In this document: positions 1,753 through 57,215 of the stretch, piece by piece
Layout: every line of letters starts with the position of its first letter
How positions within the stretch are numbered: position 1 is the stretch's first letter
Assembly (NCBI GenBank): GCA_022496205.1
Contig: WTXD01000103.1
Span: 1 to 60,192, forward strand
Reading direction: 5' to 3'
DNA length: 60,192 nucleotides
Source of the DNA: Gloeopeniophorella convolvens
Lineage: Eukaryota > Basidiomycota > Agaricomycetes > Russulales
Made by a program: the position numbers and the translations under genes
The notes under the pieces: model-generated
Database searches by the model: none
The model's input: only the letters and a program-made list of their open reading frames with translations
Told to the model about the DNA's origin: nothing

Positions 1753-2006
1753 AATACTGGCAGCTATCTTTGTAAAGTAAAACATGGTAATATTCATATT
1801 TTGGTCGTCATTTTCAGCATGAATTTTTGATACTATAGTAATGCTGATAATACAGCTATTATAGTAAAAACTTCTATAAAGTGCACACTACACTGCTAAC
1901 ATGATAGTGCCTACTATAAACACTATTATAAATACAATAGTATACTATGTATTGTACTATCAGTACTAGTAAATACTATAGTATATATATAGTCTTACTT
2001 AGAGTA

Positions 2007-2750
2007 CTATAGTAAATATTATAGTGTAGTATATACAGTTCTACCAGCACTATAGTAATTACTATAGTATACTATACATGGGCATATCAGCCCTATAGTA
2101 AATACTATAGTATAATATATATGGTTTTACCAGCACTATAGTGAATACTATACTATACTATATATAGTATTCTTAGCCTTACAATGAATCTTACAGTATA
2201 CTATATATAATTCTATCAGCCCTTTAGTGAATACTATAGTATAATATACATGGTTTTGTCAGCCTTACAATAAATATTATAGTATACTATACATGGTTCT
2301 ATCAGCCCTATAGTAAATACTATAGTATAATATACATGATTCTACCAGTACTCTAGTAAATACTATAGTATACTATACATAGTTTTGTCAGCCTTATGAT
2401 AAATATTATACTATACTATACATGGTTCTATCAGCCCTATAGTGAATACTATAGTATAATATACATGATTCTACTAGTACTATAGTAAATACTATAGTAT
2501 ACTATACATAGTTTTGTCAGCCTTACAATGAATATTATAGTATACTATACATGGTTCTATCAGCCCTATAGTGAATACTATAGTATAATATACATGATTC
2601 TACCAGTACCATAGTAAATACTATACTATACTATACATAGTCCTACTAGTACTCTAGTAAATACTATACTATACTATATATAGTTCTATCAGCCCTGTAG
2701 TAAATACTATAGTATAATATACATGATTTTACCAGCACTATAGTAAATAC
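2007..2750 (+). repeat. 43 bp minisatellite array, left arm (about 17 units)
   Basis: Tandem units of 43 bp typically begin CTATAGTAAATACTATAG and end ATCAGCC or ACCAGTA. Variants alternate, for example units starting CTATAG versus TTACAAT, giving a higher-order pattern. Units differ by a few substitutions. The array is extremely AT-rich and made of self-complementary short blocks (CTATAG, ATACTAT). Confidence 0.85.
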
Positions 2751-3790
2751 TATCCTATTCCAGACTATTCCAGATTCTTCCAGGCTCTTCTATAGCCTAC
2801 CTTGAGTTCCAGTATCCACCTTAGTTCCACTTTCATGTGGGTCACTAGTTATCACATGTTGCTGTGTTTATTACATGCAAACCACACTCTTTTTATGTAT
2901 ATAAGGGATGCTGTTTTTGCCCTTGTTGCCTCAATCTGTTAACTTCACTGACTGAGGCAAGTACTTTACTTCTGGTACTTCTAGACTTGCGCTTACTTAG
3001 TTACTTTAGCTTTGCTCTTGCTTGCCTAGGTATTGCACCAATGATATAAAGTCTGTTGACTTCACTGACTAAGCTTTACTCTTGCTTGCCTAGTTGACAC
3101 CCTATCTTGCTGTGCTTTAATGTAGCTCTCTATTAATGCACTAGAGGCTGATTGCCTCTTGTTACAACTTACTTCTATAATACTAGTATATAGAGGAGCA
3201 GAGGTGGTGCACAAAGAGTAGTCTTTGTAAAGGACTGATATTATAGGTGTTGGCCTTGAATCTACTAGCTAGTGTAGACCGATAAAGATAGCAGAGCAAA
3301 GGCAACTAGTAGAATACTAAGAATGATGAGTTGGGTAGATTAGAAATATCACAAGTGGATAGTCTGAGGACTGCTTGTCTTAGCACTATCTTTATATATA
3401 TAAGAGTCTATTTATATTGTTGAAGTATAGTAGAAACAGGGTGCCAATTAGGCAAGCAAGAGTAAAGCTCAGTCAGTGAAGTCAACAGACTTTATATCAT
3501 TGGTGCAATACCTAGGCAAGCAAGAGCAAAGCTAAAGTAACTAAGTAAGTAAGTGCAAGTCTAGAAGTACTAGAAGTAAAGTACTTGCCTCAGTCAGTGA
3601 AGTTAACAGATTGAGGCAACAAGGGCAAAAACAGCATCCCTTATATACATAAAAAGAGTGTGGTTTGCATGTAATAAACACAGCAATATATGATAACTAG
3701 TGACCCACATGAAAGTGGAACTAAGGTGGATACTGGAACTCAAGGTGGGCTATAGAAGAGCCCAGAAGAATCTGGAAGAGTCTGGAATAG

Positions 3791-4410
3791 GATAGTATTT
3801 ACTATAGTGCTGGTAAAATCATGTATATTATACTATAGTATTTACTACAGGGCTGATAGAACTATATATAGTATAGTATAGTATTTACTAGAGTACTAGT
3901 AGGACTATGTATAGTATAGTATAGTATTTACTATGTACTGGTAGAATCATGTATATTATACTATAGTATTCACTATAGGGCTGATAGAACATGTATAGTA
4001 TACTATAATATTCATTGTAAGGCTGACAAAACTATGTATAGTATACTATAGTATTTACTAGAGTACTGGTAGAACCATGTATAGTATACTATAGTATTCA
4101 CTATAGGGCTGATAGAATCATGGATAGTATACTGTAAGATTCATTGTAAGGCTAAGAATACTATGTATAGTATACTATAGTATTCACTATAGTGCTGGTG
4201 AAACCATATATATTATACTATAGTATTTACTATAAAGCTGATAGAACTATGCATAGTATACTATAATCTTTACTGTAGGGCTAACAAAACCATGTATATT
4301 ATACTATAGTATTTACTATAGGGCTGATATACCCATGTATAGTATACTATAGTAATTACTATAGTGCTGGTAGAACTGTATATAGTACACTATAATATTT
4401 ACTATAGTAC
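3791..4410 (-). repeat. 43 bp minisatellite array, right arm (inverted copy)
   Basis: Same 43 bp unit as the left arm but in reverse complement, with CTATAGTATTTACTATAG blocks. The unit order mirrors the left arm, so the whole 2.9 kb could fold into one long hairpin. The right array is shorter by about three units. Confidence 0.83.
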
Positions 4411-4661
4411 ACTAAGTAAGACTATATATATACTATAGTATTTACTAGTACTGATAGTATAATACATAGTATACTATTGTATTTATAATAGTGTTTATAG
4501 TAGGCACTATCATGTTAGCAGTGTAGTATGCACTTTATAGAAGTTTTTACTATAATAGCTATATTATCAGCATTACTATAGTATCAAAAATTCATGCTGA
4601 AAATGACGACCAAAATATGAATATTACCATGTTTTACTTTACAAAGAAGATCACCAGGGCT

Positions 4662-15483: not shown

Positions 15484-16127
15484 TGTTAGGACTCACTCGC
15501 GGTGTGCGTGCAGAGAGGATAGCAGAGGGGTTTGGAGAGTGTCACAAGGGGGAAGACAGAAGATGAGCTGCGATATGCAGGAACGGAGTGGGAACACACT
15601 AACAGTGCTATTGCAGTGCTAGGTACAGATGAGAGTGCCACAGATGGACAGTCTGAGGACCACTGGGCGATACATGGGGGTCTTATATACTACTGGAGAC
15701 CCCCCAGACAAATCTGGTCTAATTACTGATGGGGATTCCAGAGGGGATTCCCTATAGCCTCTCCTCTCTGATACGCTTCTTAGATTCCATCGCAGAGTGG
15801 GGCTTGAGGCCCCATGGAGTTCTTGATGATCAGAGTCCCAAAGAGGACGTATGAAGTGTTTCACCTTGGTTACTTTGGGACGAGTAATATGGCCATTCTG
15901 AGAGATCCCTAGTCCGGGATCTTGGGGGTATTCCAGGGTTAATTGGCCATTAGGGAGTAGGGCGAGGAATGGGGGTGAAGGGTCACGTGATGCATTTCGA
16001 CTTGTAGTCGCAATGTGAGTGGTACGCGTCGCATTGTGAGCGACGCGTAGGGTGTTTACTGGTAGGGCTGGGTTCGCTCTAGTGTTCTGAGCAGTTCGAC
16101 CTCCTTGAGGCCCTAGTGTTCGTGACA
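15484..16127 (-). repeat. 3' LTR of G2 element, subtype A (644 bp)
   Basis: Plus-strand ends are TGTTAGGACTC and GTTCGTGACA. It lacks the 12 bp TGATCAAGGTTC block of subtype B and carries the GTGTGCGTG and CACAAGGGGGAAG variants, as does the solo LTR at 43706-44349. Its partner 5' LTR is subtype B. Confidence 0.93.
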
Positions 16128-17739
16128 TTATCCCCTCTTTATGATGGCGCTGCGCCTGAAGCGCATTGATAAGTCTGTCATGAGCGAGTGATGGTGGTTG
16201 TGGCATAGAGGGGTGTTGTTGGTGGAATGAGTGAACAGTTTCCATGGTGTGTTTCATTTCCGAGTAAGGGACCCATGAATTTTCAGAGTCAGGGTAACCT
16301 TTCCACTTGACAAGGTATTGAATGCCTCGTCGGTTTCTAGTGGTTCGACTCTTGATAATTGTTTCAATCTCGTAGTGTCCTTCTTCATCATCAATGATTT
16401 CAGGTGGGGGTGTTGAAAAGTTAGGTCCGTGAGCGGTGGTTTCTTTGTATGGGGAAATGAGTGAGTTTTGAAAGACAGGGTGAATGTGCCAATGGTCGGG
16501 TAGTTTGAGTTTACTGGTGACTGCATAGGAGGTGATGACTTTAAATGGTCCATAACATTTGGGTGCTAACTTCGCCTTTGGATGTGCTGTACGAAGGTTC
16601 TTTGCTTCTAGCCAGACAAGATCTCCTTCTTTGTACTTATATTCTGGTCCGTCAGGTCTAGAGCATTTCATGATTTCTGCAGCGTTTTCTAAGCTCGCTT
16701 TGATTTCGGTGTGGATTTGCTCAAGTAGTATGAGACGTTGTTCGGCAGATTCGACTTTGGAACCAAGTTGTGGTGGTGGAATGAATTCGGGGAGGAAGCC
16801 ATACCAGGCTAAGAAGGGTGCAATATGGGTAGCTGAGTGTTGGCGATTATTGTGTGCAAATTCCATGAACGGGATGAGGTTAACCCAGTTGTCTTGTTGA
16901 TAGTTGCAGAAGACTCGTAGGTATTGTTCTAGTTCTTGGTTAACTCGTTCTGTTTCGCCGTCGGTCTGAGGGTGGTATGCAGTACTGAGGGTGAGAGTTA
17001 CTTGAAGTCGTTTCCAGACTTCTTGCATAAATTGCGATGCGAATTGTGGTCCTCTGTCAGAGATAACTTGTTTAGGAAGTCCAGTGCGCTTCCAGACATA
17101 ATTGATGTAGAGGTCGGCAGTTTGTTCTGAGGTGATAGTTTTATAACAGGGAGCGATGATAGTGGCTTTGGTGAAGCGGTCAACTACGACGTAGAGTGAG
17201 TCGTATCCCTTTGAGATAGGGAGGTCGGTAATGAAGTCCATGGTGATGACTTCCCAGGGACGGTTTGGGATTTCGTTCGGATGCAGTGGAATGGGATTAG
17301 AGTGTTGTCGTTTAGTGGTTTGGCAAGTGGCACAGCCGTCAACGTAGTCTTTGACGAACTTGGATATTCCAGGCCACCAGTACTCTCGAGAGACTAGTTC
17401 GTAAGTTTTCCATCTTCCTGGGTGGCCGGTGGTGAGTGACTCATGGTATTGTTGAACAATTTCTCGTTGTAATTTGGTGTCTTTGGGGATATAGACCTTT
17501 CCTTGATGTAAGATGAGACCGTCTTCGTAGTTCCAATCTTCTAAGCCTTTTGCTATCGTACGTGGACCATTCTTCATAATTGTTGTTAATGCTTTAGTGA
17601 CTTCTTTGTCTTTGTCTTGAGATTCTCTAATGCATCGTCGTAGGTTTTGGTCTCCAATGGTAGTGGTAGTGCCAGCGCGAGTAGCCCGAATTGCGAAAAA
17701 CTTGGTGTCCAGGAGGATTTTGTTGTCGTTTTCAGTCAT
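15619..17739 (-). CDS. pol: Pol C-terminal part: integrase, chromodomain and LTR-encoded tail (706 aa)
   Basis: Order: His/Cys zinc-binding region (HESLTTGHPG to CATCQ); catalytic core with MDFITDLP, SDRGPQFAS and QTDGETERVNQ; and a chromodomain (IQYLVKWKGYPDSENSWVP). The frame then runs without a stop through the polypurine tract into the 3' LTR and ends only at 15619, adding about 170 LTR-encoded residues. Its apparent ATG start is not natural. In the upstream frame a conserved [14 protein letters not shown] stretch leads straight into it, so one base has been lost near 17795 and RT/RNase H is now in another frame. Confidence 0.85.
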   Translation of the reverse strand: MTENDNKILLDTKFFAIRATRAGTTTTIGDQNLRRCIRESQDKDKEVTKALTTIMKNGPRTIAKGLEDWNYEDGLILHQGKVYIPKDTKLQREIVQQYHESLTTGHPGRWKTYELVSREYWWPGISKFVKDYVDGCATCQTTKRQHSNPIPLHPNEIPNRPWEVITMDFITDLPISKGYDSLYVVVDRFTKATIIAPCYKTITSEQTADLYINYVWKRTGLPKQVISDRGPQFASQFMQEVWKRLQVTLTLSTAYHPQTDGETERVNQELEQYLRVFCNYQQDNWVNLIPFMEFAHNNRQHSATHIAPFLAWYGFLPEFIPPPQLGSKVESAEQRLILLEQIHTEIKASLENAAEIMKCSRPDGPEYKYKEGDLVWLEAKNLRTAHPKAKLAPKCYGPFKVITSYAVTSKLKLPDHWHIHPVFQNSLISPYKETTAHGPNFSTPPPEIIDDEEGHYEIETIIKSRTTRNRRGIQYLVKWKGYPDSENSWVPYSEMKHTMETVHSFHQQHPSMPQPPSLAHDRLINALQAQRHHKEGIMSRTLGPQGGRTAQNTRANPALPVNTLRVAHNATRTTHIATTSRNASRDPSPPFLALLPNGQLTLEYPQDPGLGISQNGHITRPKVTKVKHFIRPLWDSDHQELHGASSPTLRWNLRSVSERRGYRESPLESPSVIRPDLSGGSPVVYKTPMYRPVVLRLSICGTLICT
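16126..16141 (-). promoter_or_regulatory. 3' polypurine tract of G2 element
   Basis: On the minus strand TAAAGAGGGGATAA abuts the LTR start TGTCACG. This is the usual plus-strand primer site. An identical 16-mer, including the following TG, occurs internally at 17737-17752. Confidence 0.75.
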
Positions 17740-17752
17740 TATCCCCTCTTTA
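17737..17752 (-). promoter_or_regulatory. Central polypurine tract candidate
   Basis: TAAAGAGGGGATAATG on the minus strand is identical to the 3' polypurine tract plus the first LTR bases, 1.6 kb upstream, between RNase H and integrase. Central tracts that prime a second plus strand are known in Ty1 and lentiviruses. Function here is inferred from identity and position only. Confidence 0.45.
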
Positions 17753-19068
17753 AGATCTGGACGGCGGGACAGATGATCGGCGCGCTGTAAATGCCGGGTT
17801 TATGAAGGAGAAGAACGTCATATTGGGAAAGTTCAAGAGACCAGCGTGCTTGTCTTCGAGTGAGTTTCTGCTTTGTGGTGAAGTATGTCAGGTTGTTGTG
17901 GTCGGTCCAGATTTCAACACGGTGTTGAGCCCCTTGTAAATAGTGTCGATAGGTTTCAAGGGAATGGATAATAGCAAGGAGTTCTTTGTCGTGGATGTCG
18001 TAGTTGCGTTCTGCGTCGGTCATGGATTTAGACAGGAATGCAACTGGGTGCCAGCGATTAATTTCGTCTGGTTGCTCCAGCACAGCGCCGATGGCAAAGT
18101 CGGAGGCGTCTGTAATCAGATGAAATGGGCGAGTGTGGTCGGGGAGTGTGAGTACTGGGGCTGAGGTGAATGCGTGCTTAAGGTTGTCAAATGCTTGTTG
18201 ACAGGCTGAGGACCACTGGAATGGAGTATCTTTATGTGTGAGGGTATGAAGTGGTCGTGCAATCTTAGAGAAATCCTTGATGAAACGTCTGTAGAAATTG
18301 CCAAAGCCGAGGAATGCTTGAACGTGCTTGAGTGTTTTTGGCGTCGGCCATTCCATGATAGCTTTAAGTTTGGCAGGGTCCATGCGAATGCGACCGGCAG
18401 AGATGATAAGGCCAAGGTATTCAATGGTTGTCTGGAAGAAGGAACATTTCTCTGGTTTGAGGTAGAGGTCGAAGTCGCGAAGTCGCTGGAGGACATGATG
18501 AATAAGGGCATAATTTTCTTCAAGAGTGTCGGTGAAAATGAGGATGTCATCCATGTAGATAACAACACAGCCGGTTGCAATGATATCCTTGAAGTTCTCA
18601 TTCATAAAGGATTGGAACGTGCCGGGGGAGTTGCAGAGTCCAAAGAACATGACTAGGGGTTCGAATAGACCACGGTTGGTCTTGAAGGCGGCTTTCCATT
18701 CATCGCCTTCTTTGATGCAAATATTGTTGTAGCCCCAGCGGACGTCAAATTTGGTGAAGTAGCGGGCGTTCTTGAGTTTGTCAATGAGTTCAGGGATGAG
18801 TGGAAGCGGGTAAGCGTTCTTGATTGTGATGTTGTTGAGGGCGCGATAGTCTTGTACAGGACGTAATTTTCCATCTTTCTTCTTGACGAAGAAGAACGGG
18901 CTTGCCATAGGTGACTTCGAAGGGCGAATATAGCCTTTTGCAAGGTGTTCTTTGAGGAATTCGTCAAGGGCCTTCTGTTCATCGGGGGTGAGACTGTAGA
19001 TTTTACAATCACGGAGTTGGGCATCAGGTTTCAGGTCGATAGCATGGTCCCAGGGTTTGCGGGCAGGG
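17739..19068 (-). pseudogene. pol: Pol middle part: reverse transcriptase and RNase H
   Basis: Frame segments: [55 protein letters not shown] (catalytic RT box), [17 protein letters not shown], then RNase H with [11 protein letters not shown] and DHNNLTYF. The open stretch from 18908 extends upstream in frame to a TGA near 19069, where CGA is expected from related proteins (AQR). It ends LLHKPG followed by a wrong-frame tail KRG because of the single-base loss near 17795. The family normally has protease, RT, RNase H and integrase in one polyprotein. Confidence 0.87.
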
Positions 19069-19240
19069 AGTCATTGGGCAGCTGATTCTTCAAAGACTTT
19101 GCGGTACTTGAGGAATTCTGGAGGGACAATGTCTTCAATTGTCTTCTTGGGTGCGACATTTTGTTCGGCCAATTGTTGTGAATGAGTCGTTTTGGCGCGG
19201 ACAGATATAGATCCTATCGACGGGTATAACTCTAGTTGTG

Positions 19241-20104
19241 TTACAGACGAGCTCCAGGATCATGGACCACTGCACTGGTGGAACGCACACAAGGATCATT
19301 GACCACTGTTTGGGTGTGCATTGATTCTGATTGGAAGAGTCGTCTGATGGTGGTGAGGTCGACAGAGTCAAGGAGATATGGTTCTTGAAGGGTGTAGTTG
19401 ATGTGGCCACAAGATGCAAGGACCGTTTGCATTTCTATGGCAAAGTTCACGTTGGCTTCATGGATATCATCTTCATTGGTATTGGTTGGTGCAGTGATGG
19501 TACGGATTAGACCAACAGGAATGTTGTCTAGCGTAGTGGCAGAGATAGTGGAGTCAGATAGTTGGCAGGAAGGGGCACAACGGTCAAAGGTAATTGTGTC
19601 CTTTTCCCAATTGATACTAGGGTTGTGTCGTCTAAGCCAGTCCGTGCCTAAGATGAGGTCGTGGTCGCCGATGTCAGTGAGATATAATTCAATCCATTCT
19701 TGGTGCGAGTGGCTGTCTGGTGTAGGGATTTCAAGGCGTTGAATAGTAGTATATTGAACCAAGCCGGTGGCGTTATCAGTGCCATCGACATTGCAAACAG
19801 GGAAAGGTTTGACGAGTTTCTTGAGCGTGAAGTGATGTTGGTTGGCAAAATTGGTATGCAGGATAATGCCTTCTGTGCCACTATCAACGAGTGCGTGTGC
19901 ACTGATTTTTCGGCCAGAGGACTGTCCCAGGAAATTGACTCTAACAGATATGGACGGAGTCCGTCGATTACGCGTCGTAGACGACGGTACAGGAATAGAG
20001 TCAATCGTTACAAAGGGTTCAAATTTCTCAACTCTGAAGAACCTCTCATATGTCCTCTGAACACGAAGAGTCCCAATAGACAGTGCGGCTACAGGACGGT
20101 TCAA
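19241..20104 (-). pseudogene. pol: Pol N-terminal part: aspartic protease
   Basis: The 287-residue frame contains the retropepsin active site HALVDSGTEG near residues 90-100 and the ILGTDWL flap-side motif typical of Ty3/Gypsy protease. It overlaps the end of gag by 4 nt in the -1 frame. Its last 20 or so residues and the unread DNA to 19070 suggest a frameshift near 19240, since the expected linker continues in another frame (EDIVPPEFLKYRKVF). Confidence 0.82.
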
Positions 20105-20110
20105 AAATCC
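20101..20110 (-). promoter_or_regulatory. Putative -1 frameshift site at gag/pol overlap
   Basis: GGATTTTTGA on the minus strand, with the gag stop TGA at its end and pol continuing in the -1 frame as TTT TTG. It is identical to the junction in family G1. Confidence 0.55.
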
Positions 20111-21615
20111 TTCTTCTCGGAAGTGGTAGATGGGGAGATGATGTCGGAAACGGCTTGCTTGGCCTCGGGAGTGGCTTGAGCATACCAGCTATTGATAGCT
20201 TGGATAGAAGTGTCGGTAGTGGAGGAGGACAATGGGTCATTCGCAATGAGATTGCGAGAGTTAGATGAGGGAGTAAAGGATCCGCCGCGTCCGCGGCCTC
20301 GGAATGATCCTCTAAAGTTTCCTCTACCTCGGCGGTTAAAATTGAACGAAGTGGAAGATGAGGGTCCGCTAGGCTTCTTGAGGCATTTGTCAGACCAGTG
20401 TCCTCCTCCTCCACAGTACATGCAAAGATTGTTGTCGCGACGATGCTTGCGCTCTTCAGTAGTGAGTGGGGGAAATGTAGTGGTCGCATTAACTTGTGAG
20501 ATTTCTCCTTCTTTGAGGGAGCGGATGTTGCTTCGTCCGCGTCCACCTTGGAAGGTACTCCTGGGACGGTTCGTCCAGTAGGAGTCGTCAAGTTCTTGGA
20601 TAATCTTAACGACTTCCGCAAGCGTCTTTGGTTTGTTTGCGACAGCAGAGTACTTCTGCTCAAGTTGATTGTTCAAGTTATGGCGGAGAATGGGGATGGT
20701 GACAGTGTCGTCAGTGATGGCAGCTTCAGTGCGTGCAACGTCCCAATCTTGGTACCATTCGTGGAAGCGGCGAATGCCTTGTGGGTACTGGAAGAACTTG
20801 TTGATAGCAAGTTGTTTCTGGTCTGGGTTGGTGAACATAGTTTCAAAGGCGTCGACAAAGGCTTTCTAGGTGCCGTAGGCTTTATTCGTGAGTGCGTCAT
20901 TCATGCGGACGCGAGCCCATTCCCCAGCACGGGTGTTGTTTTTAAAGTGAGTATAGGCGTCGGCGATCTTCTTGGTGTCAGTGTTATACAGGTCTTCATT
21001 GAGCGAATAATAGTTGTTAAGATGAGAAAGGAATTGGCGGGCAGTGGCTTCTGTGCCGTCAAAGGGTTCTGGTGGGCTGCCGAGTAATTTGGAAGACATC
21101 TTGGGCGGAGCAGTAGTGGTTCCTTGTGATGGTGGGTTTACTGGTGATTTAAATGGAGGTGGTACTTGAGTCTGATGAGATGAAGAGGCAATTGGAGTTT
21201 GAGTTGGTCCAATACGAGAGACAGGAGGCGTAGGAGTCTGGACGAAAGGTACAAGTTCTTGAGGCTGAGACGATGGAGGCGCAACTGGTTCAGACGATTC
21301 TTCAGGAATTGGGTTTTGTTGAGGAGATGGATGACGTTCCGGGGTACCAAAGCCTCCAGGTATGGTGCGAGGCAAGTTTGCAGCTAATGGGGTGCCTAAT
21401 GGAGTAACTTTTCTGGAGATACAGTGGATGGTTTCTGAGTAGATTCTAGGAGTTCGTTGACTTCGTCTGAGTCGTCTGAGGGAGGTGGTGTAGGTGGTGG
21501 TACGACGCGGGTTGTTCAGGAGGGTCAAAGTATACTGGTTGGTTGTTGAAGTATTGCCACCATTTCCTTTCTTCGTTCCAACGGACTTTCTTGTCTTTGT
21601 AAGTCCTTCTAAGGA

Positions 21616-22141
21616 TGTTGAAGCGCAGCAGAAACAGGGTGCCAACTAGGCAAGCAAGAGCAAAGCTCAGTCAGTGAAGTCAACAGACTTAATGTCATTG
21701 GCGCAATACCTAGGCAAGCAAGAGCAAAGCTAAAGTAACTAGGTAAGCGCAAGTCTGGAAGTTCCGGAAGTAAAGTACTTGCCTCAGTCAGTGAAGTCAA
21801 CAGACTGAGGCTACAAGGGCGAAAACAGCGTCCTTTATATACACAAAAGGAGTGTGGTTTGCATGTGATAAACAACAGCAACATGTGATAACCAGAGACC
21901 CATGTGAAAGCGGAACTAAAGTGGGTCGACCGGAACTGCAGGTGGGTCAACCCGGAACTGCATGTGGGTCATGGAAGAGCCTGGAAGAATCTAGAACAGG
22001 AACGAAAGTAGGTACAGCCTTAGGGGCTAGAACATAATGATGTCATATACATTGTAGATCAGATAGCTCGCAGATCACCGAGTCCCTTATCTAATCTAAT
22101 CAGAGACGTCCTTCCTGTCCTGAGTCCTGTCCGTCTCAACA
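21616..22141. repeat. Solo LTR, family C (526 bp), TSD AAGGA
   Basis: TGTTGAAGCGCAGCAG start, GTCTCAACA end, AAGGA on both sides (21611-21615, 22142-22146). It splits the G2 gag gene. The same family occurs at 10808-11293 and, truncated and inverted, in both arms of the foldback element at 1767-4647. Confidence 0.96.
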
Positions 22142-23014
22142 AAGGACACCCAGGCGTAACCTTGAAGTTGATCGGCGTGTGGGTAGTAAGCGTTGAGTGT
22201 GTCGAGGACTAGTACTTGATAAGTGGTGAAAACTGTTTGCTTGGTTGCCTCGTCGAGGACGAGAGTTCGTCCAAGGACTGTGGCGATGGCGTAGACATGT
22301 CCGCTTTCTTCGTCAAGTCTGATTTTCCTAATAATGCTTCCGGGAGGTAGATGTCGGGAGATGTCAGTGATTTCTTCTGGGCTAGGGTCGTTCCAATTGT
22401 TCTCTTTGATGTATCTTTGGAATTCGGTACTCATAAAGAGTGATTCAGATGATAGGGAGTCCTACAACTTGCACAGTGTAGGTGTTGACGTTGTGAAGAT
22501 ATGTGATGGTGACAGCATGGTTAAGGATGGGACGACGTCGATCAATGGAATGGTGTTCAATGTGGGCGTAGTCTTCTTCGATGTGGTCGCGAAAGATTCT
22601 TGTAGATTGCTTCCACAGATAGCCTTCAAAGTGTAGAGGATCGCTAGTGAAGTTGGCGAGTTCGTGGAGGTCGTGGGGGAAACTGATGATACGGAGTTGG
22701 CGACGATTGTATTCTTCTCTGCACCAGCGTCAGAAGTTGTGAAAGCCAGAGTAGTTTCGAGTAGGCAGGGTTTGGCCGATGTAGATAATTTCTGGATGGT
22801 GCGCAACGTTATTACGTTGGATGTCGATGAGTCGGGTTCTGCTGAGGTTTCTTGGATCTTCAGGGGTTGGCGTACGTTGTAGTGGTGGTAACGTTACTTG
22901 CGGTAGTGGTGTCGGAGGACAGTGTCTGGGAGACCGTCAACGATTAGGTCTGGATGCCAGGATTGCAACAGAAAGACTCTGATAGTCTAAAATACAGGGT
23001 ACAGGAGGATCTGA

Positions 23015-23926
23015 CTAGATCTCTAAATACTGGGTGTTGGTAAGGTCACTGGTGTCTTGTAGGTCGAGGTCGCTGATAGTGTGGATGCTGGGGACGTCGT
23101 TGTCTGTTGCTTCTTGTTCTTCGTCGAGGCTGAAGTTGCTGACGATGCTTGGGGCGTTGTTCCAACTATTTTCTCCGGTATCTGATTCAGGGGTTGCTGG
23201 AGGAATAAGAGGAGGTCGTCGTGGTACAAGATATAGGAAATTGTTGTTTGATTGGACAAGGTCGAGGTCGAGAGGATTGCTTATGATCCAGTGTGCGTCT
23301 TGCAGATGCAAGGTATAGTTGCAGAAGGGGCCGGAGCAGATAGAGTAGAGGGGTACTAAAGGGTTTTCTTGAAAGAGAACAAGTTGAGCGAAGTGGAGGT
23401 GAGTCTGGTACGGAGTAGTGATGAAACGTTCAAGATAGTAGATTCGATGGCCGGTAAGGATTTTCTCAATGAGATGTTCTTTGTGGACTTGGACAATGTT
23501 CCACCAGAAGAGCTCGAGTTTGAGCCAAAGGTTGGTGGTTTGGATGGGTTCCCAGCGTACACCGCTAGGTCGTTGGAGGAACCAAAAGAGGTGTTGTTCT
23601 TCTATAGCACTTTGGACAATGTTCCTTTCAGCGTTGAACCAGTGGCTAAGGTGTAAATCGTTGTCGAAGAGTTGTCCGAATGGGAGAGATCGTCGAAATC
23701 TTGTTAGGACCGGAGTGAGCCAAGAGTCAGAGCGAACTAGAGTGTCGGTAGAAAAGTCGTGGACACGAGCGCAAGGGTCGTAGAACTGGAGTCGGATAAT
23801 ACGATGAAGGACTTGATAGTATTTGTCGAAGAAGCGTCGATAGGCTTGGTCAAAGGTTAGACAATTGTCGTCGTTGTAAGGAATAAGGTGGAGTCCTTCA
23901 AGCAATACTTGGGGTGGTGCTTCCAC
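23015..23926 (-). CDS. Leader ORF B (303 codons, no internal methionine)
   Basis: An open frame without any ATG; the first codon counted here is GTG. It encodes an aromatic-rich region (DQAYRRFFDKYYQVLHRI, LFWFLQRPSGVRW, WLKLELFWW) followed by a Pro-rich linker and an acidic Ser/Thr tail (NFSLDEEQEATDND). It lies in the same register as ORF A (upstream) and ORF C (downstream). I recognise no domain. It could be part of one long ancestral leader protein now cut by stops at 24263, about 23950-24040 and 23015, or a constrained non-initiating leader. Confidence 0.4.
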   Translation of the reverse strand: MEAPPQVLLEGLHLIPYNDDNCLTFDQAYRRFFDKYYQVLHRIIRLQFYDPCARVHDFSTDTLVRSDSWLTPVLTRFRRSLPFGQLFDNDLHLSHWFNAERNIVQSAIEEQHLFWFLQRPSGVRWEPIQTTNLWLKLELFWWNIVQVHKEHLIEKILTGHRIYYLERFITTPYQTHLHFAQLVLFQENPLVPLYSICSGPFCNYTLHLQDAHWIISNPLDLDLVQSNNNFLYLVPRRPPLIPPATPESDTGENSWNNAPSIVSNFSLDEEQEATDNDVPSIHTISDLDLQDTSDLTNTQYLEI

Positions 23927-24262
23927 TGAGTCGAGTCTGAGTCAATAGTATCTCCCACAGAGGTGCTACGCACTCTAGAAAGTTATTGGGCAGATACTAT
24001 TTACAGGTACAAGTATTCGACTGAGTTGCTAGGTTTATTCAAGTTCTCCCCTTGGCACGTGAATGAGGGCGATGAGGTTATGGTCGTGGCGAAGGAAGGG
24101 TGTGTCTCCTACTTCTCTGATGTTGTCAGGGACACGCTGGAGGCCGGTGAAGAGTCGGAGTTGAGGGTATAGGAGGCAGGAGTCATTGAGTTCCGAGTAG
24201 CGATCGCGGATGGAGATGATGCAGCTGTGATCAAAGTGGAGAAAGCCGTAGGTACTCAGAAA

Positions 24263-25503
24263 TCAGCCGTCTAGGAAGTCGATATGGCGGAGTGGGACTC
24301 TGGCGCCTTCAAAGCACCTTTGGGTGCCAAATTCAAGGGAGAGGAGGTTGTCGACAAGGTGATAGGTGAACTCGTAGCGTATAGCTCCAAGGGGTAGTTC
24401 ACGCGATGGGGGAGTGTAGACGGTGAAGGCGCAGATGTAGCGAGGGTGGTATGGATGTTCAGATAGGCGTCGGTTGCCTTCGTTTGGATGGGTGGCTTCA
24501 AGAATGAAGTAGTGGTACTCCTCTAGGTGGGAGCGGAAGGGGCGGAGCTCAGGGAAGTAGTTATTGATATTTTCGAGGTAGAATCGAGCAGATTTGATGC
24601 GAGGGATGTGCCAAAGGAGCTGAGAAGCGTCGAAGCGTTGGGGGCGACCTGCAAGTTGTGCTGCAACTCGCTCGTGAGGTCGGTGGAGTACACGGGGGCA
24701 AGCAGGAATGGGTTGGAGTGGTGGTGCGTCGAAGTGGAAGTCGACGTAGTCGGTGAGGTCACTATCGTTTGTGAGCTCAGAGGGGGAGCGAACGCGATGG
24801 TATGGGGGAGGTGCTTGGTCAGGGATTTGCTCGACTGCGACGTCAATGAGGATCTCGAGAGCAGGTGCTGGAACGAGGTTGGGAGCAAAGATCAAAGGGG
24901 ATATCGTCGCTGCTCGTGAGGGTATGGGAGTTGGTACAGGATGAGGAGTAGGAGCGTGAGTAGGAGGGAGCGCAGGAGTATGCGCCGGCGATGCAGGATG
25001 AGGAGAAGGGGCAAGGACAGACAGATGCGAAGGGGAGTAAGGAGGTGAAGAACGCGAAGGGCGAGGCTGGGGAGTGGATAAGAAAGGGGAGGCTGGAGTA
25101 GACTTGACCAAGGGGCTGGGAGCTTGTTCACCAGTAGAGGGGCCAGGGATAGGAGACTGTGGGATGGCTGAAGTGCGCAGGATTTCTGCAAAGCGCTCTT
25201 GTACTTGTTGGGCTCTGAGACGGACTAGGAAGTCGAAGGCTGAGTGATGCGGAGAGGGAGAGCGAGGTGGTACAGTGAGGACGTCGAGGATCTGTCCTGG
25301 TTCAACGTTGACAGGAGATGGGGAGCGAGGATGATACGATGGAGAGCGAGGCGTGGGTGGAGGATGAGGAGTAGAGACAAGGGGAGGATATTGGAGTTCA
25401 GGTGACAGTCCACGAGTGGGAGTGCCGTAGTCAAGAAGGGTTGGCGGTCCACGAGGGGGAGCGTCAAGGTCAGAGTAAGAGGAGGGACGAATCAGCGCCT
25501 GAG
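24263..25503 (-). CDS. Leader ORF A (about 413 codons, no methionine)
   Basis: Open from just after a TAA at about 25504-25506 to a TGA at 24263-24265, with no ATG in frame. The N-terminal half is Pro/Ser-rich (SPHPASPAHTPALPP, PTPHPVPTPIPS). The C-terminal half looks folded (FHLEEYHYFILEATHPNEG region, PYHPRYICAFTVYTPPSREL). Past the TGA the same register stays open to about 24037. Its Pro-rich N-terminus plus compact C-terminus is reminiscent in style of ORF3 of G1, but I see no clear homology. Confidence 0.4.
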
Positions 25504-25602
25504 GTTAAGCACGGTCCGAGAGGAGCGCGGTCTGAGGTGCGGTGATTCCAAAGTAAGACACTAGGATCGCAGCTGATCAGAGGGTGTAAGAGACTGTCCA
25601 AA

Positions 25603-26254
25603 TGTCAGGACTCACTCGCGGAGTGCGCGCAGAGAGGATAGCAGAGTTTGGAGAGCGTCGAGGGGGATAGACAGAAGATGAGCTGCGATATGCAGGAGCA
25701 GAGAGGGAACACACTAACAGTGCTATTGCAGTGCTAGGTACAGATGAGAGTGCCACAGATGGACCGTCTGAGGACCACTGGGCGATACATGGGGGTCTTA
25801 TATACTACTGGAGACCCCCCAGACAAATCTGGTCTAATTACTGATGGGGATTCCAGAGGGGATTCCCCATAACCTCTCCTCTCTGATACACTTCTTGGAT
25901 TCCATCGCAGAGTGGGGCTTGAGGCCCCATGGAGTTCTTGATGATCAGAGTCCCAAAGAGGACACATGAAGTGTTTCACCTTGATCAAGGTTCTGGTTAC
26001 TTTGGGACGAGTAATATGGCCATTCTGAGAGATCCCTAGTCCGGGATCTTGGGGGTATTCCAGGGTTAATTGGCCATTAGGGAGTAGGGCGAGGAATGGG
26101 GGTGAAGGGTCACGTGATGCATTTCGACTTGTAGTCGCAATGTGAGTGGTACGCGTCGCATTGTGAGCGACGTGTAGGGTATTTACTGGTAGGGCTGGAT
26201 TCGCTTTAGTGTTCTGAGCAGTTCGACCTCCTTGAGGCCCTAGTGTTTGTGACA
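25603..26254 (-). repeat. 5' LTR of G2 element, subtype B (652 bp)
   Basis: Plus-strand ends TGTCAGGACTC and GTTTGTGACA. Same length and diagnostic variants as the solo LTR at 8630-9281, unlike its own 3' LTR. Confidence 0.93.
25797..25805 (-). promoter_or_regulatory. TATA box of the G2 5' LTR
   Basis: GTATATAAG on the minus strand, kept in all five LTRs of this family. RNA should start about 30 nt downstream, near 25765-25775, which places the nearby ATG (25788-25786) upstream of or at the very start of the transcript. Confidence 0.6.
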
Positions 26255-55140: not shown

Positions 55141-56261
55141 AAATCCTCCCCTTTGAGTTCCGAGTCGTCATAGAGAACCTTGCAGAATGCTTCTTTATCT
55201 TCGATAGAAGCTTTGTTTATATATGCCGCGAATTCAGCCAGGATAGGAGTATGTTGACGTTGGTTGTAGTATGGTGGTTTGGCCTCGTCCTTGGTCGCGA
55301 TTTTGCGAGCCGTTGTAGGACGCCCTTGTGTCTTGGGGCAAGCCCTAGACATATGGCCTCGATTTCCACACTTAAAGCAGCGTCCTTCGGCGAAGTACCT
55401 TTGTCATTCTTCTTCGGATAGGCGTGGGTTCCTTTGTTCGGTCTGCCTTGGATTGGTATTGATTGTGTCCGTTTGGATCGAGTCGATGTCCATTGGTACT
55501 ACGTCATCGTTGCGGGGTCGTGGTCTATATCCTCCCTGATTCCCGTTGTTTGGGCGGGGTTGGAAGTGTGGTTGAAGCGGTCGATCTTCCTTTCGGAAGA
55601 TGTCATTGATCTCGGCACGGTGATCTTGTTGTTTGGACAGTTCCTTGGTCCACTCGTCGAATTTCCACTTGGGTTTGGCATTGTTATGGCCGAAAGGATC
55701 ATCGGCTCGTTTGACAATGCGGATGACTAGGGCCTCCGGAAGTCCTCGCAGGAAGATGCGAATGAGTTCGACATCATTGAGGTCATATTCGGCGCGGCGT
55801 GCTGTGGTCCTGAAGCGTCCCACATAGGAGTCGAAGCTTTCGGCTCTAGGGATCCATCCCATGACTTTGAGGATGGTGTGGGCACGGGTGGCTGATGCGC
55901 GATCGAGGAATTTCTCGTCCGCCATTTCCTTGAATTTGTCCCATGCTTCGTCTGGCATGGCCGGTGGGTCCGCTGGGTCGGTTGCTTTCTGTGCCCTGAC
56001 TTTGGCAAGCCAGGCGAGTTTCTCTATGACCCAGTCTTCGATGATAGGGCCTCTGAAGTATGTAAGCGCGAGCGTGACTCGCTTCATTGGTTGGTCGACG
56101 AGGTCGACCCCTGAGTTGAGTTGACAGAGTAGCTCGAATTGGCGCATGAAGGCGTGGTAGAATTCGGATTTCCCATTGAACAGGATGGGAGCTTCACCGG
56201 CTAGTTTGCCATTGGAAGTACAAGTTGGGGCCGGGGTCGTGTTGGTTACGTTGACCGACAT
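55137..56261 (-). pseudogene. gag: Gag polyprotein of G1 copy 2
   Basis: The first in-frame ATG is at 56261 (MSVNVTNTTPAPTC); the frame is open a further 440 nt upstream to the LTR with no ATG. Capsid-like core: YHAFMRQFELLCQLNSG, DYVGRFRTTARRAEYD-like region, RIFLRGLPEALVIRI. The zinc knuckle CFKCGNRGHMSRAC lies near 55315-55360. A TGA at 55404-55406 (EEE-QRYF) breaks it just before the knuckle. It ends at 55137 in GGATTTTTGA, overlapping pol. Confidence 0.85.
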
Positions 56262-56711
56262 ACTGTTGAGTTGGATGGCGGCGACTGATTCGATTACTGA
56301 TTCGGTTTCAGTTTCGCGACGCGTTTCGACGTGGTGTTTGTCTTCTTGTTGGATTTGGTCGATGATTCGGCCAGGTGCGATTTGTTCGGTTAGTTGCGAT
56401 GCTTGTGCAACTTCTTGGAAGTACTGGTGAATGTGTTCCGGGTATGATACTTCTGCGAGATGTTCGTCGGTGATCGAGAACGTAAGAGTGCGTTCGTTGA
56501 GGTGGAGATACACCCAAGTGTAGTCCGGCCGCAAGTAGGTTCGGTGGGGGCGCTCAGATTCAGAGAATGTTTTGTAGTGACCGAGACGTCGGTTCCAGTG
56601 TTGTTCGGTTCCTCGAACTTTGATAGGTTGCTCTAGCTGAGCAAACGGCAGCGGCTGCTGATCAAGGGGTTCGTTTCGTCCCGGGGTGAGAGCTAAGAAA
56701 GCTTATCCTAA

Positions 56712-57215
56712 TGTAACGTTCGTGCGTTGAATCGTCGTCGCTGGGCATGGACGGTTCGGGTTCACGTCGGGGCTCCCAGTCGGGACGCACTGCGACGAAG
56801 GGGTCTGTTGGAGTCAAAGTCGTGGATCCGCGTGGATCCTCGTCAATTGGCTGGGACGTGGTGACGATGGGCGACCAATCGGGTCGCTCGGACTGAGGGT
56901 AGAGAGGAGAAGGGACTCGGATTCGCGCTGTAGCTACTGTACTGGAGAATACAGGAGGACAAGCTTGTAGTTACAGAGCGAATGAACTAGTCCTTAAATA
57001 CTCGACGTGGCACAGCTATATCGTACAGAGGGGTTTGCATAAGACGAAGACAGGGATCCTGGTAGTCGTAAACGAGGCGCGAGGAGTCAGGAAAAGCGAT
57101 GCGGCGTAAGGGAACGAGGAGACGAGACGAGCGGCGCAGCGCGGGAACAAGGCGCGTACCGTACGAAAAAGGAAAGAGTAAGAAAAATAGTAGGGCAGTA
57201 CGTAGAGCCGTAACA
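56712..57215 (-). repeat. 5' LTR of G1 copy 2 (504 bp)
   Basis: Ends TGTAACGTTCG and GCCGTAACA on the plus strand. A 17 bp deletion relative to the 3' LTR joins CGTGCG to TTGAATCG. TATTTAAG (minus strand, near 56993-57001) is a likely TATA box. The U5 ATG is at 56748-56746. Confidence 0.93.

Follow-up and report, generated by a model that had tools for sequence, protein, structure and literature searches.

A retrotransposon of Gloeopeniophorella convolvens carries a predicted leader of about 3.3 kb from which AUG is kept out by selection, a conclusion that is well supported. The exclusion affects every frame between the LTR and the gag AUG and stops there. The leader contains three successive reading frames that lack methionine in most open copies, ORF-A (~513 codons), ORF-B (308 codons) and ORF-C (189 codons), which are protein-coding and under purifying selection. 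That the ATG-poor stretch is protein-coding was overlooked in the original prediction. Judged by the position of the frames, the three products would be accessory proteins, produced at a low level compared to gag.

The element spans 26254 to 15484 on the minus strand of the window, that is, the whole stretch of 60,192 nt that was analysed. Its features are as follows.

25603 to 26254, minus strand: 5' LTR (TGTCA...TGACA), placed by its located ends
25798 to 25804, minus strand: TATATAA box, offset -202 from the LTR end
25788 to 25790, minus strand: last ATG before the predicted RNA start
25760 to 25769, minus strand: self-primer and RNA 5' end, both predicted; the window copy departs from the 10-mer at one position
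25591 to 25602, minus strand: primer binding site region, complementary to the self-primer
24038 to 25576, minus strand: ORF-A, Met-free, ~513 codons; stops interrupt it in the window copy
23018 to 23941, minus strand: ORF-B, Met-free, 308 codons; open in the window copy
22448 to 23014, minus strand: ORF-C, 189 codons, Met-free in preserved copies; not open throughout in the window copy
22432 to 22434, minus strand: gag ATG; in zero-ATG copies, the predicted RNA has no earlier AUG
20104 to 22434, minus strand: gag, with 619 codons where preserved and an interruption in the window copy
19247 to 20188, minus strand: protease region (RVP_2), from Pfam
17745 to 19070, minus strand: reverse transcriptase and RNase H, from Pfam
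15625 to 17799, minus strand: integrase with H2C2, core, Tf2-1-like SH3 and chromodomain; the frame continues into the 3' LTR
15484 to 16127, minus strand: 3' LTR, placed by its located ends

The TG...CA ends and a short target duplication are those of an LTR retrotransposon. CTTTG was found on both flanks of copy C398, the LTRs of which are identical at 647/650 positions; the flanks of the window copy agree at 4/5 positions, and those of copy C382 differ from each other. Pfam matches above the cut-off were RVT_1, RT_RNaseH, Integrase_H2C2, rve and Chromo, with reverse transcriptase and RNase H followed by integrase and a C-terminal chromodomain. By this chromovirus domain order, the element is assigned to the chromodomain Ty3/Gypsy group. 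The ATG at 22434, already proposed as the gag start, opens a 619-codon ORF in preserved copies, and its methionine is invariant in comparison with four distant gag proteins (24–33% identity over the alignment). In the window copy, gag is interrupted at 21616–21874 by sequence related (88–92%) to that at 3418–3680; one repeat therefore seems to sit in both places. The integrase frame has no stop through most of the 3' LTR (15622–16127, minus strand), which may thus encode the C-terminal end of pol.

The primer binding site region is complementary over 10 nt to an LTR stretch located ~35 nt past the TATATAA box, and the RNA 5' end was predicted from this sequence match. In self-priming elements such as Tf1 and Tj1, the primer binding site is described as complementary to the mRNA 5' end (PMC4600332). 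If priming occurs as in Tf1, the RNA would start ~167 nt before the LTR end, and the last LTR ATG would lie ~20 nt upstream of this start. Six of the 30 best leader loci (L001–L030) do not contain the self-primer site region; of the 24 testable ones, 23 have the exact 10-mer, the exception being the window copy.

On the sense (minus) strand of 22435–25602 (3,168 nt), two ATGs are found (CAT at 22516 and 24184), compared to 25.4 ± 4.3 expected from 500 dinucleotide shuffles, the minimum of which was 12. The antisense strand is normal (60 versus 54.1 expected). The original count of two ATGs in about 3,170 nt and the claim of a strand-specific loss are thus both borne out, and the shuffling control proposed at that time places the deficit on the sense strand only. 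The 40–50 ATGs then expected were an overestimate of nearly twofold. With much C and little G (15%) on the sense strand, the expected number drops to ~25. The two longest ATG-free runs of the whole window on either strand, 1,668 and 1,604 nt, both lie in the leader, and the next is 624 nt; the 1,604-nt run extends to 25790, inside the LTR and ~20 nt upstream of the predicted RNA start. ATG was the most depleted trinucleotide in all five copies analysed. R-U5 (167 nt) is free of ATG in the window copy, as had been noted, and in 19 of 24 loci tested, while the remaining loci do not share this property.

A search of the organism's own genome (36.7 Mb, 404 contigs), with scores for 40 of 59 candidates, yielded at least 58 leader matches, the best 30 of which were examined. 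Among the 14 copies with a leader longer than 3.1 kb, the sense ATG counts were 0, 0, 0, 0, 1, 2, 2, 3, 4, 9, 10, 23, 25, and 27. No leader ATG was present in seven of the 30 loci, which together comprise 18,662 bases. From the predicted RNA start to gag (3,312–3,320 nt), copies C382, C398, and C47 have no ATG, compared to 25.3, 26.7, and 22.0 expected; in the 6.2 kb after the gag ATG, the same copies have 77, 73, and 72 ATGs versus 71.0, 69.1, and 70.9 expected. ATG density falls with rising CpG content (Spearman -0.93, 30 loci), a correlation that serves to rank the copies by decay but adds no independent proof, because ATG can arise from CpG decay itself. A normal ATG density in other copies had been named as evidence against the idea: the deficit persists, with zero ATG in four of the 14 long copies, and normal density occurs only in CpG-poor, decayed ones.

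In an alignment of 11 copies, the stops of ORF-A (TAA) and ORF-B (TAG) are at the same position in all 11, and the stop of ORF-C (TGA) is at the same position, 10 nt before the gag ATG, in each of the 10 that include it. Seven copies have an open ORF-A (L005, L011, L017, L026, and L039 over the whole length, L028 up to the contig end, and L040 with an aberrant tail); five of these lack methionine, and L017 and L040 have one each. ORF-B is open in L011, L012, and the window copy, and ORF-C in eight copies, all of them Met-free. The dN/dS ratios were 0.11–0.39 for ORF-A (21 pairs), 0.15–0.52 for ORF-B (three pairs), and 0.17–0.42 for ORF-C in 13 of 28 pairs, the other 15 being without synonymous change. 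The conserved open frames together with these ratios rule out a non-coding leader. Of the 14 long copies, L011 alone has all three frames open, and it carries two ATGs in the leader and another in U5; in the four that lack leader ATGs, C is open but A and B are interrupted. Even C398, which its LTRs (647/650) and matching CTTTG flanks mark as a recent insertion, has a broken ORF-A. Such breaks may be real, may be tolerated because A acts in trans, or may be assembly errors.

Homology searches gave little. Pfam showed no match to A, B, or C at E values up to 1, and no solved structure was matched by the sequences of A and B. Searching 5.8 billion predicted proteins with ORF-A revealed no relative among the 7,991 best word-sharing candidates scored; the same collection contained one relative of ORF-B (97%), on an ENA contig of 1,377 nt and apparently called from GTG. 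Viral contigs searched with A, B, and gag contained no relatives. AlphaFold2 models of A and B had a mean pLDDT of 29 and 32 and are useless as folds. A relationship of A or B to gag or to each other was rejected, as the hhalign probabilities (1.9, 0.2, and 0.1) amount to nothing.

The end of the gap between A and B (~23942–24037, minus strand) hardly varies among the 11 aligned copies, in spite of subfamily differences at the end of ORF-A. This stretch contains GTGCGT as well as AG pairs and might serve in regulation or splicing. Joining of A and B by an intron across the ORF-A stop was rejected, since inspection by eye revealed no shared upstream donor in the two subfamilies. In the C-terminal part of ORF-A (alignment columns 271–490), L005 and L011 differ at pS 0.60 and pN 0.32, and their N-terminal parts are much closer; two far-diverged C-terminal versions behind a closer N-terminal part suggest recombination between subfamilies.

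Selection against AUG was assessed independently of the protein sequence by 1,000 synonymous shuffles per frame, with protein and codon usage fixed and out-of-frame ATGs counted. ORF-A of L005, L028, L026, and L039 has none, compared to 4.2–5.1 expected (2–5 of 1,000 shuffles as low), and ORF-B has none in all three copies, compared to 3.1–3.9 expected (4–20 of 1,000). For ORF-C, six of eight copies have none versus 2.1–2.5 expected (40–80 of 1,000 as low), a result that is weak alone because these six are nearly identical. No significant deficit was seen for ORF-A of L011 (2, 4.1 expected), L017 (6, 5.6 expected), and L040 (4, 5.5 expected); ORF-C of L023 and L027 has 1 (3.9 expected) and 2 (2.8 expected), respectively. 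The controls were normal, with 9 ATGs versus 9.5 expected in gag and 20 versus 13.5 and 23 versus 21.5 in the pol frames.

Comparison of copies points in the same direction. Zero ATG is found in both L002 and L013, although 385 substitutions separate them and random placement of these gives 10.6; for L003 and L014 (367 substitutions), random placement gives 10.0 ATGs. In neither case was any of 500 runs as low. Closer pairs showed a mild effect, with 45, 21, 38, and 25 of 500 runs as low. Decayed copies compared to L002 have 25 ATGs in L006 (18.4 expected at random), 28 in L008 (20.6), 24 in L018 (20.1), and 11 in L007 (13.4), counts that include filled gaps. Zero ATG in diverged copies and the gain of ATG in decayed ones therefore argue for selection as the cause of the exclusion. 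As the effect concerns every frame and has its boundary at the gag ATG, it points to ribosome scanning and not to the proteins alone.

Inefficient non-AUG initiation of A to C, combined with leaky scanning through 3.3 kb to gag, is the best explanation and in our judgement a rather probable one. The capped RNA would start at the self-primer, with the last LTR ATG ~20 nt upstream. Ribosomes that scan this RNA would begin inefficiently at near-cognate codons and thereby produce A, B, and C, and most of them would scan onward and initiate at gag. As gag would be the first AUG reached by scanning, any AUG newly arising within the 3.3 kb would reduce the expression of gag-pol. After finishing ORF-C, some ribosomes may also reinitiate at the gag AUG. 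Candidate starts are the conserved near-cognate codons GTG 6 and CTG-ATT 30–31 in ORF-A, GTG 6 and TTG 13 in ORF-B, and CTG 19 in ORF-C, the latter with A at -3 and G at +4. In codons 7–29 of ORF-A, synonymous change exceeds other change in three comparisons (p = 0.005, 0.041, and 0.375), a hint that translation starts before CTG 30.

Several observations count against the scanning model. The gag AUG stands in a weak context (T at -3, A at +4), and ribosomes on their way to it could be diverted by the 68 CTGs of the C398 leader. The donor-like GTGAGT at the LTR end, the rarity of copies with all three frames open, and the missing out-of-frame deficit in ORF-A of L011, L017, and L040 also weigh against it. 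So does the folding energy, which does not support a leader less structured than gag-pol (mean per 150 nt -25.1 versus -26.1 in C398). The original prediction had offered selection for scanning to gag or non-AUG translation of the leader as readings of the deficit. The exclusion of AUG holds, as seen in diverged copies, in out-of-frame positions, and in the regain by decayed copies; scanning and non-AUG initiation themselves are inferred. Both readings are probably true together, since the leader has three conserved ORFs without AUG. The full scheme, a polycistronic mRNA without AUGs that encodes three Met-free accessory proteins from non-AUG starts and is scanned from end to end over 3.3 kb to gag, is put forward tentatively, its chances being a little below even.

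Splicing is the first alternative. Gag would be made from an mRNA from which most of the leader is removed, with the donor-like GTGAGT at the LTR end and an acceptor before gag, B, or C, and A to C would come from other RNAs. The GTGAGT (at -12 in the C398 leader) is present in all 11 aligned copies. However, constant removal of the leader would leave no reason for the exclusion of AUG from all its frames, and an intron of 3 kb would be unusual for a fungus; we regard this alternative as unlikely. About as unlikely, or slightly more so, is that ribosomes are brought to gag by termination and reinitiation after ORF-C or by an IRES instead of by scanning over 3 kb. The constant distance of 10 nt between the ORF-C stop and the gag ATG (10/10 aligned copies) and the weak context of this AUG would suit such a mechanism, but AUG is excluded across the whole 3.3 kb and not just near gag, and A to C would still require non-AUG starts. 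Hardly any weight is left for chance, base composition, or a mutational bias against ATG: although the composition lowers the expectation and methionine is rare in gag-pol too (24 of 2,190 codons, at which rate the absence of Met by itself has P ~1.6e-5), the dinucleotide and synonymous-codon controls and the normal gag-pol of the same element rule out the first two, and the gain of ATG in decayed copies rules out the third.

In a second Gypsy family of the window, the 456 nt that separate the LTR from the gag ATG at 56261 (56262–56748, minus strand) contain no ATG (3.0 expected; 5 of 500 shuffles with none). An AUG-free leader may therefore be usual for such elements here, and it is the length and the coding content that set the leader of the first family apart. 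Within a copy of the second family, a stretch of ~2.9 kb at 1767–4647 has long inverted arms (92% complementarity over 658 nt) together with arrays of a 43-nt repeat and looks like a separate mobile element.

If the scheme is true, the element would provide a multi-gene message without AUG before its fourth gene. With no Pfam match for A, B, and C and a single relative (of B) from the protein searches with A and B, it would also point to a class of genes invisible to ATG-based gene finders. The presence of diverged, preserved, and decayed copies in one genome makes AUG exclusion directly measurable.

Parts of this arrangement are known from other systems. Murine leukaemia viruses make a glycosylated gag from a CUG upstream of the gag AUG; the non-AUG start is alike, but glyco-gag is an in-frame N-terminal extension of gag, whereas A to C are separate ORFs with their own stops. 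Ogre has an extra ORF1 before gag and Retrosat2 is described with an extra ORF0, and like the present element they combine an ORF of unknown function with gag-pol; here, there are three such ORFs. To our knowledge, the extra ORFs of Ogre and Retrosat2 are not reported to lack AUG. Nor do we know of a coding leader of this kind in Tf1 and Tj1, from which the present element differs by its three extra ORFs before gag. It resembles these fission yeast elements, as far as they are described, in the primer binding site complementary to the mRNA 5' end (predicted here), the chromodomain integrase, and the Tf2-1-like SH3 (PMC4600332). A literature search of open-licence PMC papers returned no passage on an LTR retrotransposon with an AUG-free coding leader.

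The closest parallel is rice tungro bacilliform virus (RTBV), from another virus-like family and without detected homology to the element. According to the cited accounts, ORF I of RTBV starts at AUU, ORFs I and II lack internal AUGs, and leaky scanning extends over ~900 nt, with leaky scanning likewise in badnaviruses (Caulimoviridae) (PMC5902531, PMC3542737). Shared with these viruses are successive long ORFs free of internal AUGs before the main structural-polymerase ORF, which in our element holds except in decayed copies. The non-AUG start of ORF I may have a counterpart in ORF-A, for which no AUG is available. ORF II of RTBV, in these accounts, begins at an AUG in poor context, whereas preserved copies offer no AUG for either B or C; RTBV also employs a shunt together with a short AUG uORF, whereas R-U5 is without AUG in most copies here. 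Set against the ~900 nt given for RTBV, the 3.3 kb of the present leader, more than three times that distance, would be a natural limit case for ribosome scanning.
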